DNA of 64,000 nt from Ostreibacterium oceani. GTDB taxonomy: Bacteria > Pseudomonadota > Gammaproteobacteria > Cardiobacteriales > Ostreibacteriaceae. Where the stretch lies: the NCBI RefSeq assembly GCF_009362845.1, contig NZ_WHNW01000003.1, forward strand, positions 1 through 64,000, given 5' to 3'. Below the pieces are notes generated by a model. The model ran no database searches, had not been told where the DNA came from, and saw only the letters and a list, made by a program, of their open reading frames with translations. How positions within the stretch are numbered: the stretch's first letter is position 1; each line of letters begins with the position of its first letter. Shown here one piece after another: positions 22,722 to 50,560 of this stretch. Position numbers and translations under genes: made by a program.

Positions 22722-22797
22722 GGGTGCTTAGCTCAGTTGGTAGAGCATCGCCCTTACAAGGCGAGGGTCAGGGGTTCAAGTCCCTTAGCACCCACCA
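22722..22797 (+). tRNA. tRNA-Val (anticodon TAC)
   Basis: A complete 76-nt cloverleaf with encoded CCA. The acceptor GGGTGCT pairs with AGCACCC, the anticodon stem TCGCC/GGCGA encloses loop CTTACAA with TAC at 22755-22757, and the T-arm has GGTTCAAGTCC. It is followed six bases later by tRNA-Asp. Confidence 0.97.
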
Positions 22798-22803
22798 GTT
22801 ATT

Positions 22804-22880
22804 GGAGCGGTAGTTCAGCTGGTTAGAATACCTGCCTGTCACGCAGGGGGTCGCGGGTTCGAATCCCGTCCGTTCCGCCA
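22804..22880 (+). tRNA. tRNA-Asp (anticodon GTC)
   Basis: A complete 77-nt cloverleaf with encoded CCA. The acceptor GGAGCGG pairs with CCGTTCC with one G-U pair, and the anticodon loop is CTGTCAC with GTC. The T-arm GGTTCGAATCC is canonical. The accessory Rhs island begins immediately downstream. Confidence 0.97.
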
Positions 22881-22953: not shown

Positions 22954-23283
22954 ATGCAAAAACCAAAATGCAAAAGCTGCAATAAAAAAATCAAATTACT
23001 AATTTTTATTCTTTATCCTTTGTTAGGCTATAAATGTAAGCATTGCAAAATTTATCATGGTGTTAGCTTTGGTAGAAGGATTTGGGTATTTCTTTATTAT
23101 CCTTTCGGTTATATTAATGGAATGTTCCTTGGGCGGGGCTTGAATATTAGCCATGATAAAATAATTAGTTATGTCGCTTATATTTTTTTAGTGATATGTG
23201 CTCTGTTGGTTCTCGATTTGCTTTTATATTGGCTAGTGGCATTGTTTAAAAAGTTTTTTCTTGATTATTCAAAGTCAAATTAA
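22954..23283 (+). CDS. AT-rich small membrane protein with Cys pairs, island gene
   Basis: A 109-residue protein with two Cys pairs near the N-terminus (CKSC, CKHC, residues about 6-31), a zinc-ribbon-like layout broken by a hydrophobic segment (LLIFILYPLLG), and a second membrane segment at about 70-97. Base composition is much lower in G+C than the neighbouring core genes. The gene ends exactly where a Rhs fragment begins. By position it may be an immunity gene left from an earlier Rhs tip; that is inference. No known family recognised. Confidence 0.55.
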   Translation: MQKPKCKSCNKKIKLLIFILYPLLGYKCKHCKIYHGVSFGRRIWVFLYYPFGYINGMFLGRGLNISHDKIISYVAYIFLVICALLVLDLLLYWLVALFKKFFLDYSKSN

Positions 23284-23286
23284 TGA

Positions 23287-23622
23287 TACGCCTACGACGT
23301 GCGCCAGCGCCTGACGGCGGAGTTTGACGAGCGGGGTGAGTTTATTCAGGGGTATTTGTACGAGCCAAGCAGCCCCTACACCACCAATCCATTGGTCAAA
23401 ATCGACAAAGCAGGGGATAGCTTAAGCTACAGCTATTACCAAAACGACCATCTAGGTACGCCACAGCTACTCACCGACAAATCCGCGAATGTGGTGTGGC
23501 AAGGCTTTTATCAAGCTTTCGGTGACATACAAATCACCACCGAGACGGTGAAAAACCCGTTGCGTTTCCTGGGTCACAAAACGACAGGAACACGTTTTGA
23601 ATCGCGGCGGATTACTGCGTAA
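23287..23622 (+). pseudogene. Rhs fragment A, core region, broken
   Basis: The frame from 23287 reads YDVRQRL directly joined to TAEFDERGEFIQGYLYEPSS, then YYQNDHLGTPQLLTDKSA, VVWQGFYQAFGD and LRFLG. These are typical Rhs/YD-repeat core pieces. A TGA (23284-23286) precedes it and no credible start exists. Compared with fragment D, 48 codons are missing between RQRL and TAEF. At about 23576 an inserted stretch interrupts the core and brings a stop codon. Full Rhs proteins form large shells around a toxic C-terminal tip; this piece is not functional by itself. Confidence 0.85.
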
Positions 23623-23697
23623 GCCAACGCGAGTCCGCAGTGCGCTTTTGCCTTAGCAAGCGCACAAGGATAAAACCCACGGATGGGTTTTATAGAT
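23577..23697. mobile_element. About 120-bp hairpin-rich insertion in Rhs fragment A
   Basis: Fragment B shows that the Rhs core normally runs straight from LRFPGQ to HDEEINLYQNYH. In fragment A about 120 bp separate these parts. The inserted DNA contains a hairpin with arms GTGCGCTT/AAGCGCAC (23640-23665), one with arms ATAAAACCCA/TGGGTTTTAT (23670-23693) and overlapping inverted repeats (ACTGCG 23614-23619 with CGCAGT 23636-23641). TCA flanks both ends, a possible 3-bp target duplication. It may be a miniature transposable or REP-like element. Confidence 0.5.
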
Positions 23698-23698
23698 T

Positions 23699-24139
23699 CA
23701 CGACGAAGAAATTAACCTTTACCAAAACTACCACAGGGATTATAATCCTAATTTAGGCCGCTATATGCAAACCGACCCGATTGGGTTAGCAGGTGGCATT
23801 AATACGTATGGGTATGCAGGGCAAAGTCCGTTGGTGTTTGTGGATGTTTATGGGCTGGAACCATCTTGCCAAGCTTTGGAGAATGCAGGACTGGGGCATT
23901 GGTGTGAACCAAAACCAAAACCAAAACCAAAACCCGATCCAGAAGCATGCGAGAAATGCAAAAAAGCCTGTATAGAAATGGATAGTAGTCATTGTGACAG
24001 AAATAGGCCTCACCGAGTACGGAGGCCTGTCTTGGGTGAGCAATGGGTTTGTGAGACAGCGCATGGGCTTAACATTAAAGCTTGTCTTAAAGTTTGTGAA
24101 GGGACGGATTTTTGCGCTGAACCATGCGAAAATAGTTAA
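23699..24139 (+). pseudogene. Rhs C-terminal core end with Cys-rich tip 1
   Basis: Downstream of the insertion the frame resumes as HDEEINLYQNYHRDYNPNLG, then the Rhs end motif DPIGLAGGINTYGYAGQSPL and a final GLE. After this junction comes a variable tip of about 93 residues with roughly a dozen Cys (CEKCKKAC, CETAHG, CLKVC, CAEPC) and a Lys/Pro repeat (PKPKPKP). I know no toxin family with this pattern. The longest possible start inside is ATG at 23765, so the tip could only be made from an internal start. As a Rhs tip it would be a candidate secreted toxin or a leftover cassette. Confidence 0.7.
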
Positions 24140-24731: not shown

Positions 24732-24754
24732 ATAAAACCCACGATGGATTTTAT
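24732..24754. repeat. Second copy of the ATAAAACCCA hairpin
   Basis: ATAAAACCCA (24732-24741) faces TGGATTTTAT (24745-24754), a near-perfect palindrome one base from the hairpin inside the insertion at 23670-23693. Both copies lie next to Rhs core junctions. Flanking DNA is not otherwise shared in the same order. Confidence 0.6.
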
Positions 24755-24786: not shown

Positions 24787-25416
24787 ATGGGTCATAAACG
24801 GACTTGCGCCAAACTACTCACCGACAAATCCGCGAATATCGTCTGGCAAGGCTTTTATCAGGCTTTCGGTGAAGTGCAAATCACCACCGAGACGGTGAAA
24901 AATAACCTGCGTTTTCCAGGGCAGGTACACGACGAAGAAATTAACCTTTACCAAAACTATCATCGAGATTATAATCCTAACCTAGGTCGCTACTTGCAAA
25001 CCGACCCGATTGGGTTAGCAGGTGGCATTAATACGTATGGGTATGCAGGACAAAGTCCACTGATGTTTGTGGATGAATTGGGATTGAAAGGATATTGTAG
25101 TTCTCTGGGGGAATGCCCTGAGCCCTCACCGCCACCTATTTGCAATGGAACATGGTATCAATTTGGTAGTAGTTTGCCTTTCAATGTTCTTGGGTTTTGC
25201 TTATGCTATTGGGAATGTATTCCTTGTGGCAATGATGTAGGATTCAGAGCGCCAGGGAATGATAATGCGCACCTGCCTTCAGCGGATGCTGTGACAGTCG
25301 GTGGTGCTTCAGTAAGTCCTGACGGACCCATTGATACACCTGCTTATTGTAATTGTGCTCGACCTGAAAATGAATTTCCTTGTCCTGAGCCTGATTGTAA
25401 AAAAATGAATAAATAA
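24787..25416 (+). CDS. Orphan Rhs C-terminal fragment with Cys-rich tip 2
   Basis: The 209-residue frame starts with a short unrelated leader, then Rhs core LLTDKSANIVWQGFYQAFGE, HDEEINLYQNYHRDYNPNLG, DPIGLAGGINTYGYAGQSPL and the boundary DELGL. The tip that follows (about 110 residues) is rich in Cys (GYCSSLGEC, CLCYWECIPC, CNC, CPEPDC) and Pro, and belongs to no family I know. It differs wholly from tip 1. No signal peptide and no strong ribosome site are present, so it is probably a silent orphan cassette that could be moved onto a full Rhs gene by recombination through the shared core. Confidence 0.65.
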   Translation: MGHKRTCAKLLTDKSANIVWQGFYQAFGEVQITTETVKNNLRFPGQVHDEEINLYQNYHRDYNPNLGRYLQTDPIGLAGGINTYGYAGQSPLMFVDELGLKGYCSSLGECPEPSPPPICNGTWYQFGSSLPFNVLGFCLCYWECIPCGNDVGFRAPGNDNAHLPSADAVTVGGASVSPDGPIDTPAYCNCARPENEFPCPEPDCKKMNK

Positions 25417-25886
25417 TGAAGATACTCATACTGATGACTGTTTTTGTCGGCCTAAATTTTTTGTTAGTCGGAATTGGTAACCGCCCTGCTATAGACAAGA
25501 ATCTTATTCCGTCTGAAGCCTTAAATTTACACATTATAAATGAACTATCGGCAGTGCAGTATGTTTATCAGCTCCCTGCAGACTACCCTATTGATGAAAA
25601 GGCAGTTGAGCTGAAAAACATTTGGTTAAATAGCGGCTATATGCAATGTCGCGGTCACGGTTATAATCAATGGGAAACCTTTTCTGCTTATGACAATCGC
25701 CAGCAAAAAAGTGTCGAAATAAATCGTATCATACATTACTTTTACCACCCTATTGAAAAACGGAAGGTCTTTTTTGTTGCGTCGCAAAATCCCGAAGATA
25801 GCTATGATATTTTTTATCGGGATATACAAATAAACACAGCGCAGCACAGTATTTTAAAGCTGTTTTTGAAGCTGCAGTGCGACTAG
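25416..25886 (+). CDS. Candidate immunity protein, overlapping tip 2
   Basis: The ATG shares its A with the stop codon of the tip 2 gene (TAATG), which indicates translational coupling. The 156-residue product begins with a hydrophobic N-terminus (MKILILMTVFVGLNFLLVGIG), a signal peptide or anchor, followed by a soluble domain with two Cys far apart (about 69 and near the end). Such direct coupling after a variable Rhs tip is the usual place of the cognate immunity gene. A periplasm-facing immunity protein would suit a toxin acting in or from the periplasm. No family recognised. Confidence 0.55.
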   Translation: MKILILMTVFVGLNFLLVGIGNRPAIDKNLIPSEALNLHIINELSAVQYVYQLPADYPIDEKAVELKNIWLNSGYMQCRGHGYNQWETFSAYDNRQQKSVEINRIIHYFYHPIEKRKVFFVASQNPEDSYDIFYRDIQINTAQHSILKLFLKLQCD

Positions 25887-25901
25887 GGAGAAAATAATAA
25901 A

Positions 25902-26309
25902 ATGGCTATTCATTTATTTAAGAATAATGTTTCATTAAGCCGAGCAATCTTATTGACCAGCCTTATTGTTTCAAGCCTTTGTATTTTATCTGTGGCATTA
26001 TTTATCCCAATTGCATCCCAATTGCTATTGGGTAGCAATCCCCCAATTGCAACTCTAGAGCGCGGTTTAGTAGGCTATATCTTAATCTTATTAGTTAGTA
26101 TTTTTTTGGTGAATTTCACGTTAGGTTATCTCTATTTAGCTTTACTTAAACGATTCAATTTATTGAATTATTGGGCTTCTGGCATTTGTGGCTTGCTCAT
26201 CGCTTATTTTATGCTAGGTCCTATTTATGTCTATTATTCACATGTTATCATTAATTTTTTATTGCCAATCTATTTCATGCACAGAATCAAAGGGATCAGG
26301 GTCGAGTGA
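25902..26309 (+). CDS. AT-rich four-helix membrane protein, island gene
   Basis: A 135-residue protein with four membrane segments (about 16-42, 58-82, 92-112 and 115-130) and AGGGAGA before the ATG. It starts 15 bp after the previous gene and may be a second immunity factor for tip 2 or the immunity gene of a lost tip. Its last codons overlap the first bases of Rhs fragment D. Composition is AT-rich. No family recognised. Confidence 0.5.
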   Translation: MAIHLFKNNVSLSRAILLTSLIVSSLCILSVALFIPIASQLLLGSNPPIATLERGLVGYILILLVSIFLVNFTLGYLYLALLKRFNLLNYWASGICGLLIAYFMLGPIYVYYSHVIINFLLPIYFMHRIKGIRVE

Positions 26310-26833
26310 TTCAAACCAATCCCCCGACTTTGGATAACGAGACGTATTCGTATGACGAGGTGGGTAATCGCTTAAGCGAATTACTGGGCGACAACAATAC
26401 GGGCAATAATACGAATACTGGGCAGTGGCAATACAACGCCCGTGACCAGCTGATTAACACACCGTTTAATAATTTTCAATACGATACCCGATGCATTCTC
26501 AATAGTAATACCAGCCAGTTGGTCGGGACCGCGAGCAATCTCACCACCGATTATGCGTATGACGTGCGTCAGCGACTGGTGAGTGTTACTCGCGGTGGGC
26601 AAGAAGGGCAACAATTCGTCCAACAAAATGCTTATGACTTAGAAAATCGCCGTGTTAAGAAAACCGTGCAAAAAGCTGGTAATAGCCAGACCACCTATTA
26701 CTTCTACACGCACAACGGACTGACGGCGGAGTTTGACGAGCGGGGTGAGTTTATTCAGGGGTATTTGTACGAACCGAGTTCACCGTATACCACCATCCAT
26801 TGGTCAAAATCGACAAAACAGGGGATAGCTTAA
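26306..26833 (+). pseudogene. Rhs fragment D, middle of the core
   Basis: The 175-codon frame reads PTLDNETYSYDEVGNRLSEL, YNARDQLINT, TTDYAYDVRQRLVSV, AYDLENRRVKKTVQ and TAEFDERGEFIQGYLYEPSS. These are YD-repeats of the Rhs shell. Near YEPSSPYTT the frame is lost by a small deletion relative to fragments A and E. Rhs homology goes on in other frames to about 26960 (LLTDKSA, then a degraded FYQA block). No start of its own. Confidence 0.85.
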
Positions 26834-26965
26834 GCTACAGCTATTACCAAAATGACCATCCCCAGCAATAAACAATTTTACACCACAGCTACTCACCGAC
26901 AAATCCGCGAATGTCGCCCCGTAAATGTTATCTATCAGGGCTTTTATCAGGCACTCGGCAAGCTG
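26834..26965 (+). pseudogene. Degraded Rhs tail of fragment D
   Basis: Pieces of the next Rhs motifs remain, such as the DNA for SYSYYQND, LLTDKSANV and GFYQA, but with about 20 bp of foreign DNA (CCCAGCAATAAACAATTTTA at about 26859) and several frame changes. It shows that this copy has been decaying for some time. The higA-like gene begins to be read just beyond, from the other strand. Confidence 0.65.
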
Positions 26966-27000
26966 TGACAGCAAATTGTATCGGTGGTGACCAACTGGAT

Positions 27001-27330
27001 TTAGTCTGTACACTGACTGACCTGATGATTTTCCTGTGCGTGATTTTTTTGAGCGATCATGACTAATCCACACGCATTCATTATGTTGATAATATTTGAA
27101 AATAAGGGCGCGCGCTCTCCCGAGAGCGTTTTGTATAAACTGGGGCGACTCACGCCGATATCTTTTGCGACATCGCTGATTCTTAGACCTCTTGCGGCAA
27201 TAATATGCTTGAGTGCTGTGGCAATAATTTTAGGGTCGCCATCAGCAAGTGCTTCGTTAATTACTGACAGAATAACCTCATCGTTACGCAATAGTAGCGA
27301 TGGATCATAGGGTTTTGTTTTAATATTCAT
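27001..27330 (-). CDS. Antitoxin of a HigBA-like module (HI1420 type)
   Basis: A 109-residue protein with a Cro/C1-type helix-turn-helix (LRISDVAKDIGVSRPSLYKTL, about residues 52-72) and the conserved N-terminal part of the addiction module antidote family TIGR02684 (YDPSLLLRNDEVILSVINEA). It neutralises the toxin and represses the operon. It is the second gene, overlapping the toxin end by 11 bp, the toxin-first order of higBA systems. It sits in the decayed Rhs area, a typical place for mobile stabilising modules. Confidence 0.88.
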   Translation of the reverse strand: MNIKTKPYDPSLLLRNDEVILSVINEALADGDPKIIATALKHIIAARGLRISDVAKDIGVSRPSLYKTLSGERAPLFSNIINIMNACGLVMIAQKNHAQENHQVSQCTD

Positions 27331-27631
27331 CGGGTTGCTCCTTTTGTTTTATGATTTGTTTGGCAGTTTTTATATCTTTTGCTTGCGTGTCTTTATGGCC
27401 TCCACAAAGCATTACGATAACCGTACAGTCTTGCACCGTAAAATACAAGCGATAGCCTTTACCGACAAAAATCCGTGCTTCACTGACTTGACCTCCAACC
27501 GACTTTACGTCACCAAACTGACCATTTTCAAATCGAATTAGACGAGACGCAATTGCAGACAGTGCTTGCACATCCTTGATTTTGCGCACCCATTGGTCAA
27601 ATCTTTCAGTGGTTTTTATCGTGTATCTCAT
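27320..27631 (-). CDS. RelE/ParE-superfamily toxin of a HigBA-like module (HI1419 type)
   Basis: The toxin frame extends to an ATG at 27658, but MRYTIKTTERFDQWVRKI from ATG at 27631 is the normal family start, giving 103 residues. Motifs FDQWVRKIKD, EARIFVGKGYRLYF and VIVMLCGGHKDTQAKDI fit the TIGR02683 toxin family, thought to cut mRNA on the ribosome. Conserved Arg and the GGxK segment near the C-terminus are present, so it looks intact. It is the first gene of the pair, with palindromic DNA upstream. Confidence 0.88.
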   Translation of the reverse strand: MRYTIKTTERFDQWVRKIKDVQALSAIASRLIRFENGQFGDVKSVGGQVSEARIFVGKGYRLYFTVQDCTVIVMLCGGHKDTQAKDIKTAKQIIKQKEQPDEY

Positions 27632-27640
27632 CTCCCTATT

Positions 27641-27679
27641 GTATCCATTGGGATACATCGTGTCAATGCATCAATTGAC
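27641..27679 (-). promoter_or_regulatory. Palindromes upstream of the toxin-antitoxin operon
   Basis: GTATCC-ATTG-GGATAC (27641-27656) and GTCAAT-N6-ATTGAC (27662-27679) lie one after the other just before the toxin start. Helix-turn-helix antitoxins of this type repress their own operon by binding such palindromes. Which of the two is the operator cannot be told from sequence. Confidence 0.5.
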
Positions 27680-49119: not shown

Positions 49120-49563
49120 ATGAAAAATATAAACATACATAGGAATATTATCCTGAGTTTAATAATTAGCCGAACTGTTGTTGTCCTTTCTCCACCGATT
49201 TTAGGTGCTCATATGATGTATGAGTATAATATTTCATATATGAATTTTTTTATGAATTGGATGAGAGCTGATGCAGTGACTACTGGTTTTGTTCTTCTTT
49301 TCTCTGTTATTTTCTTTATTACGATGAAAAGACAAAGGGTTTTGTTTTTTGTTGCGTTGGCAAATGTTATCTTGTGGTTTATTTTATATTTCGTTTGGTG
49401 GGATGTAAACTTACATGACCTTATAAATACAGTCACTTTAAATGTAAAAGAGATGCATGTTGGTCTTTTAGGCGTTTATATTTTAGCTATCGATTTGCTT
49501 TTATTAATATTGGCTACAATTGTAATAGTTGTTGAATCTATTAGTGGTGGAGGTTCACTTTGA
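49120..49563 (+). CDS. AT-rich membrane protein, second Rhs island
   Basis: A 147-residue protein with four hydrophobic segments (about 10-30, 52-72, 76-98 and 115-138). Base composition is far more AT-rich than the MscS gene before it. It overlaps the next gene by 4 bp (ATGA-type overlap at 49560). No family recognised. Its position just upstream of Rhs debris suggests a leftover immunity gene. Confidence 0.5.
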   Translation: MKNINIHRNIILSLIISRTVVVLSPPILGAHMMYEYNISYMNFFMNWMRADAVTTGFVLLFSVIFFITMKRQRVLFFVALANVILWFILYFVWWDVNLHDLINTVTLNVKEMHVGLLGVYILAIDLLLLILATIVIVVESISGGGSL

Positions 49564-50069
49564 CAAAGCCCCCTAAGTTATTTGTTAAAATAATTATTTT
49601 ATTTATTATTGCTTTAGTAATATTGCCTGTCTTGGGTTTTTTATTATGGACTTTACAACCTTACTATAGAAATACGGTTGGTATAATCAATTCAAATTAT
49701 TTAATTCATACAAGTTGGGACGGAGAAGTTGGAATCTATAAGTACAATGATTGTAAAAACTCGATGCCATCTATTTTAAATGTTGAGTTTAATAGTTCCT
49801 ACATTGCGACAATAGACAATCATTACTTATTTGTTCAAAATAACTATGTGCATCGTCCTGAAAATAAGCAAGAATATAGCACTCCAGGTTATTTCATTTT
49901 TGATTTAAAATTATCACAATTTAAAAAAGTAAGCTTAAATGATTTTAAAGATGAAATTTATAAGGTCGAGAATTTAGGGGAAAAAGTTAGGTTTCAGAAG
50001 CCTAAAAAATTCCTCTCAGTTACACAACATCAATTTTCGAAAATGGATAATATCGAACTTTGTTTATGA
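49560..50069 (+). CDS. AT-rich single-span protein, second Rhs island
   Basis: A 169-residue protein with one membrane helix near the start (VKIIILFIIALVILPVLGFL, about 9-28) and a periplasmic domain with two Cys (about 63 and 168). It has no recognised family. It is coupled to the previous gene by a 4-bp overlap, and its stop codon coincides with the start of the Rhs fragment. As in the first island, a helper or immunity role is inferred from position only. The stretch from the membrane helix to a Cys-bearing soluble domain resembles the layout of the 156-residue gene after tip 2. Confidence 0.5.
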   Translation: MTKPPKLFVKIIILFIIALVILPVLGFLLWTLQPYYRNTVGIINSNYLIHTSWDGEVGIYKYNDCKNSMPSILNVEFNSSYIATIDNHYLFVQNNYVHRPENKQEYSTPGYFIFDLKLSQFKKVSLNDFKDEIYKVENLGEKVRFQKPKKFLSVTQHQFSKMDNIELCL

Positions 50070-50560
50070 AATTTTCTGCTGGCGTATTGACACAGGCGAC
50101 GACGTTTTACGATGCGGCAGGTGCTGAGTTATTTAGCCACTCGGTGGGTTATGGTTATACGCCTGCGTATCGCTTGATTCAAGCCAATCATCCGACACTG
50201 GATAACGAGACGTATTCGTATGACAAGGTGGGTAATCGCTTGAGTGAATTGCTGGGCGACATCAATACGGGCAATAATACGAATACTGACAGTGGAACTA
50301 CAACGCCCGTGACCAGCTGATTAACACGCCGCTTAACAATTTCCAATACGACACCCAATGCATTATCAATAGTAACACCAGCCAGTTGGTCGAGACCGCC
50401 AGCAATCTCACCACCGATTATGCGTATGACGTGCGTTAGCGACTGGTGAGCGTTACTCGCGGTGGGCAAGAAGGGCAACAATTCGTCCAGCAAAACGCCT
50501 ACGACCTAGAAAATCGCCGTATTAAGAAAACGGTGAATGACCTAACCACAAAAGCGCTCA
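50068..50560 (+). pseudogene. Rhs fragment F with frameshift and stop
   Basis: The frame reads GVLTQATTFYDAAGAELFSH, NHPTLDNETYSYDKVGNRLS, then loses frame near 50290 through a 1-bp change compared with fragment D. It continues as YNARDQLINT, LTTDYAYDVR, then meets an in-frame TAG (near 50437, where fragment D has a Gln codon), and goes on to AYDLENRRIKKTV before ending about 50540. Clearly dead. Nearly the same stretch as fragment D (26306-26740), so the two islands share a common Rhs ancestor. Confidence 0.88.

Follow-up and report, generated by a model that had tools for sequence, protein, structure and literature searches.

In the window, a stretch of 64,000 nucleotides from Ostreibacterium oceani, several broken Rhs pieces follow one another directly after the tRNA-Val and tRNA-Asp genes (22722-22880). 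A piece with stop codons (23272-23577) lies upstream of a second piece that carries a tip, here called tip 1 (23693-24139, core part 23693-23854), and is followed by the ORF of tip 2 on the plus strand (24787-25416, 209 aa), which joins an Rhs core piece to the tip studied here. Behind tip 2 lie, likewise on the plus strand, a gene for a 156-aa protein (25416..25886), a gene for a 135-aa membrane protein (25902..26309) and the next Rhs core fragment, which has no tip (26321..26968). This fragment is 84% identical to the core of the lineage over 207 residues and contains two in-frame stops, a TGA and a TAA. The tip 2 module thus has broken pieces of one and the same Rhs core on either side. Between tRNA-Asp and the first Rhs fragment, an ORF of 109 aa (22954-23283) with a C-terminal hydrophobic segment and CxxC motifs gave no Pfam match and is possibly an orphan immunity gene. 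On the minus strand, within the Rhs debris at 27001-27658, genes for an antidote-like protein (PF21716, E 1.5e-17) and a Gp49-like partner (PF05973, E 6e-4, below the cut-off) form a probable type II toxin-antitoxin pair.

Residues 24-100 of the tip 2 ORF matched the Rhs_assc_core model TIGR03696 in a profile search (E 7.4e-25). The core fragment upstream of the tip (24807..25086) comprises only about 75 residues, shows about 91% DNA identity to the core piece before tip 1 and ends with ...DPIGLAGG...SPLMFVDELGL. Rhs proteins have their tips cut free at a DPxGL region. Compared with the motif PxxxxDPxGL, the junction PLMFVDELGL keeps the fixed positions except the second P (DE for DP), and an intact DPIGL is present upstream of it. 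The tip proper, a candidate toxin domain, follows ...VDELGL at 25087-25413 (25087..25416 with the stop codon) and comprises 109 residues with 11 Cys (10.1%) and 16 Pro, which agrees with the first-pass annotation of a Cys- and Pro-rich tip of about 110 residues. The same annotation had seen no similarity between tip 2 and tip 1 (93 aa, 11 Cys), and sequence comparison bears this out (z = -0.3; 596 of 1000 shuffles were as good). Non-homologous tips are thus borne on near-identical Rhs cores. The naming of the feature as an Rhs tip holds in so far as a real tip sits on an Rhs core, but this core is an orphan fragment of a decayed family and not a working Rhs protein. The Rhs homology starts at about 24807 and does not include the ATG at 24787; no ribosome-binding site is visible at this codon and the ORF has no convincing start of its own. 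Promoter-like sites for the module were no more numerous than expected by chance.

The start codon of the 156-codon ORF begins at the last base of the tip 2 stop codon (25416, TAATG overlap). The encoded candidate immunity protein has a single hydrophobic segment (residues 3-21), a putative N-terminal membrane anchor, and the 135-aa gene with its three hydrophobic segments begins 15 bases after it. The start within the stop codon, the signal-anchored 156-residue protein and the membrane gene next in line had all been recognised correctly in the first reading of the DNA.

A homology search of the tip with its neighbours, proposed by that reading as a check, revealed a second orphan Rhs module with a homologous tip and partner in the same order. 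It is located on contig C7 of the same genome, and its tip is clearly related to tip 2 (z = 10, 0 of 1000 shuffles; BLASTP E 3e-7 in a single comparison). Eight Cys are common to the two tips, both contain the pattern CxGxWxQxGxS...CxCxWxCIxC...CxCxxPxxExPC, and a profile of the two gave a strong score in this genome for these two tips only. The gene after the C7 tip encodes a protein of 153 residues that starts with a short signal-peptide-like stretch, and Rhs debris comes directly after this gene; the module lies at the contig end and adjoins what we take, from reading the sequence, to be the end of a 5S rRNA gene. Among the immunity candidates compared, the 153-aa and the 156-aa protein formed the best-scoring match (z = 3.8; 27/5000 for the mature parts alone), and both contain GYxxCxG and a Cys near the C-terminus. 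This similarity is weak when taken alone (19% identity, E 0.015 in one comparison) and becomes convincing because it occurs in an identical gene order, tip then partner, after a clearly homologous tip. The 153-aa protein is probably a divergent homologue of the 156-aa protein. The frames of tip and partner are fully open at both loci.

Furthermore, contig C13 carries an intact 156-residue gene without a tip, a 92% identical copy of the partner of tip 2. The duplicated DNA (94.7% identity over 647 bases) spans from the last tip 2 codons to inside the 135-codon gene, the C13 copy of which is cut short and runs into an Rhs fragment. The locus is situated between a yceI-like and a priA-like gene, names given by reading and not by profile search. 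The two 156-aa genes differ by 22 substitutions, 8 synonymous and 14 non-synonymous, with about 6.3 synonymous expected at random (P 0.27), so that dN/dS between them is uninformative and selection could not be demonstrated. By its sequence, the C13 copy has the form expected of an orphan immunity gene. Finding the 156-residue gene unlinked to any polymorphic toxin had been named beforehand as an observation that would speak against a pair; such a gene was found once, on C13, and it is still bordered by Rhs sequence, as an orphan immunity gene would be.

Relatives of the 156-aa protein were sought in genome_contigs, viral contigs, plasmids and phages as well as in 96 related genomes and 398 from the phylum; outside this genome, nothing came to light beyond one weak, stop-interrupted match. 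For tip 2, plasmids, phages, genome_contigs and viral contigs, together with 32 genomes from the order and 369 from the class, gave only weak matches, which are mostly interrupted by stops and were taken as chance. Both searches covered a sample of genomes with weak profiles built from two or three sequences, and this genome was the only one of its family among those searched for relatives. Plasmid Rhs proteins that could be aligned into tip 2 have tips with 1-3 Cys, which look unrelated. Tip and partner gave no meaningful match in Pfam, NCBIfam, PADLOC or PHROGs, matches of the ORF being confined to the Rhs core, and profile searches of tip 2 detected no nuclease or zinc-finger family. Structure models of the tip and the 156-aa protein were of low confidence, and the PDB comparisons of both were empty.

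Other pieces of the lineage are found on contigs C4, C7, C15 and C13 (a 64-base remnant) and in the window at 50175-50535. Most of its cores carry stops or insertions, and a full-length Rhs gene of this lineage was not found in the genome. At 49120-50535 of the window, a tipless Rhs fragment of the same lineage is directly preceded by two small genes, the products of which (147 and 169 aa) are membrane or anchored proteins; these are possibly further orphan immunity genes. The sole long Rhs-like gene that we saw, on contig C10, has 2864 codons and is of another type, with matches to teneurin-like TTR, YD-shell and NHL models. Its product (L049 2025-10619, G000:C10; 2864 aa) has a signal-peptide-like start and resembles a teneurin-like toxin; its gene is followed by a small one that is a candidate for immunity. 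Two short Rhs proteins of 448 and 322 aa are encoded on the minus strand of C7 (L047 4684-7914, G000:C7); they share an identical signal-peptide-like start, and with it an export signal of their own, and differ in their ends. The type VI secretion system (T6SS) sheath protein VipB (PF05943) had no match in the assembly, which is rated 100% complete, while an E. coli control genome was matched. A T6SS is therefore unlikely, as judged by this one marker. A 24-base near-palindrome, ATAAAACCCACGGATGGGTTTTAT, occurs at 23670-23693 of the window, at C7:156610-156633 and at C4:282760-282783, only in Rhs fragments of this lineage. We considered it as a recombination site that could have made the tip 2 module and rejected this, since it sits inside a core insertion of about 110 bp shared by several fragments and only a degraded copy (24732-24754) precedes tip 2.

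The richness in Cys is common to the lineage. Its six tips all contain between 5.6 and 11.8% Cys, compared with 1.1-2.4% in four tips that belong to other Rhs lineages of this genome and a mean of 1.2% in the long ORFs of the window. In four cases, the gene immediately following the tip has a product with a hydrophobic segment (172, 156, 151 and 110 aa), the 172-aa and 151-aa products being membrane proteins encoded after tip 1 and after the C4 tip, respectively; of the remaining two products, that of 153 aa starts like a signal peptide and that of 119 aa shows neither feature. This suggests that the whole Rhs lineage may have delivered envelope-acting toxins. It may be speculated, tentatively, that the lineage was specialised in small Cys-rich tips, mostly with exported or membrane immunity proteins, as an arsenal of disulfide-rich envelope toxins delivered without a T6SS, and that tip 2 and the 156-aa protein are its first family with two divergent members. 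The C15 tip (L046 5737-6324) and the tip of a second C7 module (L048 6066-6539) show weak similarity to each other (z = 3.0, 12 of 1000 shuffles) and are possibly a second family, one of Cys-containing hydrophobic tips.

We consider it quite likely that tip 2 and the 156-aa gene belong together as an orphan Rhs-CT/RhsI module, probably a silent one, and represent a toxin-immunity family that is new to description. This reading is supported because a second, divergent tip with its partner exists on C7 and an intact lone partner on C13. The first-pass annotation had proposed a toxin-immunity pair of an unknown class, a proposal strengthened by the divergent C7 pair in the same order and by the fact that no known family was matched. 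Five observations weigh against it: no known toxin domain or fold was recognised in the tip, the two partners by themselves resemble each other only weakly, the relatives of both proteins come from one genome, the changes between the two 156-aa copies gave no sign of selection, and the cleavage motif reads DELGL in place of DPxGL. In an intact Rhs parent, the tip would have been enclosed by the Rhs shell and released by cleavage at the DPxGL region. Tip 2 would then fold by means of its eight conserved Cys, disulfides being likelier than zinc, and may attack a rival at its periplasm or inner membrane. The 156-aa protein would sit in the inner membrane by its N-terminal anchor and expose a periplasmic body that binds and blocks the tip. 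We infer such a disulfide-folded toxin of the periplasm or inner membrane from the exported or anchored appearance of both partners and from the many conserved Cys of the tip; an envelope target has about an even chance of being correct. The toxin half is probably silent and not delivered, because its core spans only some 75 residues, it lacks a start signal of its own and no full-length Rhs of its lineage was found. The tip 2 pair is probably a leftover of bacterial warfare, of which the immunity gene may still protect against kin with an intact toxin.

Orphan rhs-CT/rhsI and cdiA-CT/cdiI modules encode working toxin/immunity pairs (Poole et al. 2011, PMC3150448), and the displacement of old tips by incoming ones has been given as the explanation for fragments with dissociated Rhs tips (Jackson et al. 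2009, PMC2935791). Like these modules, the tip 2 module consists of a short core fragment with a variable tip, here after a region that resembles PxxxxDPxGL but reads DELGL at its end, is followed directly by a small candidate immunity gene, lacks its own start and stands in tandem with more fragments of one core lineage. Known orphan modules usually lie downstream of a full-length rhs or cdiA gene, whereas here the pieces of the lineage are scattered over several loci and none is full-length; unlike the known modules, tip 2 and its partner match no family. A 156-aa gene kept without a tip, as on C13, resembles orphan immunity genes and arrays (Kirchberger et al. 2017, PMC5361080), including a Serratia orphan immunity protein that protects against the Rhs toxin of a rival (PMC10539506). 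Those genes belong to T6SS loci, whereas no VipB was found here and immunity is a candidate function. A comparison in mode of action, with no homology claimed, is offered by the teneurin-like toxin BiTLP, the short tip of which (about 92 aa) is cut free inside the Rhs/YD shell, inhibits E. coli only with a signal peptide and permeabilises the membrane (PMC13018210). Unlike BiTLP, the fragments of the tip 2 lineage have no teneurin-like part, whereas the C10 Rhs-like gene does.

Other readings of the locus differ in how much of the pair they retain. Tip 2 could be a zinc-binding cytoplasmic domain, acting for example on nucleic acid, and still belong to a toxin-immunity pair; its CxCxWxCxxC...CxC pattern could hold zinc, but both partners look exported or anchored, which fits an envelope target, and no nuclease or zinc-finger family was matched, so that we regard this as unlikely. 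Another possibility is that the 135-aa multi-pass membrane protein is the cognate immunity protein, either alone, with the 156-aa gene as an accessory, or together with the 156-aa protein. The distance of 15 bases and the membrane proteins encoded after tip 1 and the C4 tip would fit such a role, which appears improbable in view of the homologous C7 tip, where a 156-like partner is followed directly by Rhs debris. On C13, too, the 156-aa gene is found intact beside a truncated 135-aa gene, which argues that the 135-residue protein is not needed. Since it is truncated in one copy and absent after the C7 pair, the 135-aa gene is probably not part of the toxin-immunity pair; perhaps it is an older orphan immunity gene.

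A further reading concerns present use and agrees on origin with the orphan-module interpretation: tip and partner could be drifting pieces of a dead Rhs family, neither toxic nor protective today. The stops and insertions in most cores of the lineage, the lack of a clear start signal for the tip and the substitution pattern of the 156-aa gene, in which selection is not shown (8 synonymous, 14 non-synonymous, P 0.27), would all be expected from such decay. We nevertheless consider it rather improbable, as the frames of tip and partner are open at both pair loci and the C13 partner has remained open after 22 substitutions. That tip and 156-aa gene are chance ORFs beside an Rhs fragment, functionally unlinked, could be argued from the many small ORFs of the region and its locally lower GC, but the homologous C7 tip with its matching partner makes chance very unlikely, and with the intact 92% identical copy on C13 this explanation is hardly credible.

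Orphan Rhs modules are already a known kind of locus, which limits the surprise of finding the tip 2 module. If the favoured interpretation as an orphan Rhs-CT/RhsI module is correct, it would add an undescribed toxin/immunity family to the polymorphic toxins, represented by two divergent pairs together with a lone copy of the immunity gene. The tips of the lineage are alike in their Cys-richness and exported partners and not in sequence; an Rhs lineage would thereby be tied to the compartment that its toxins attack.
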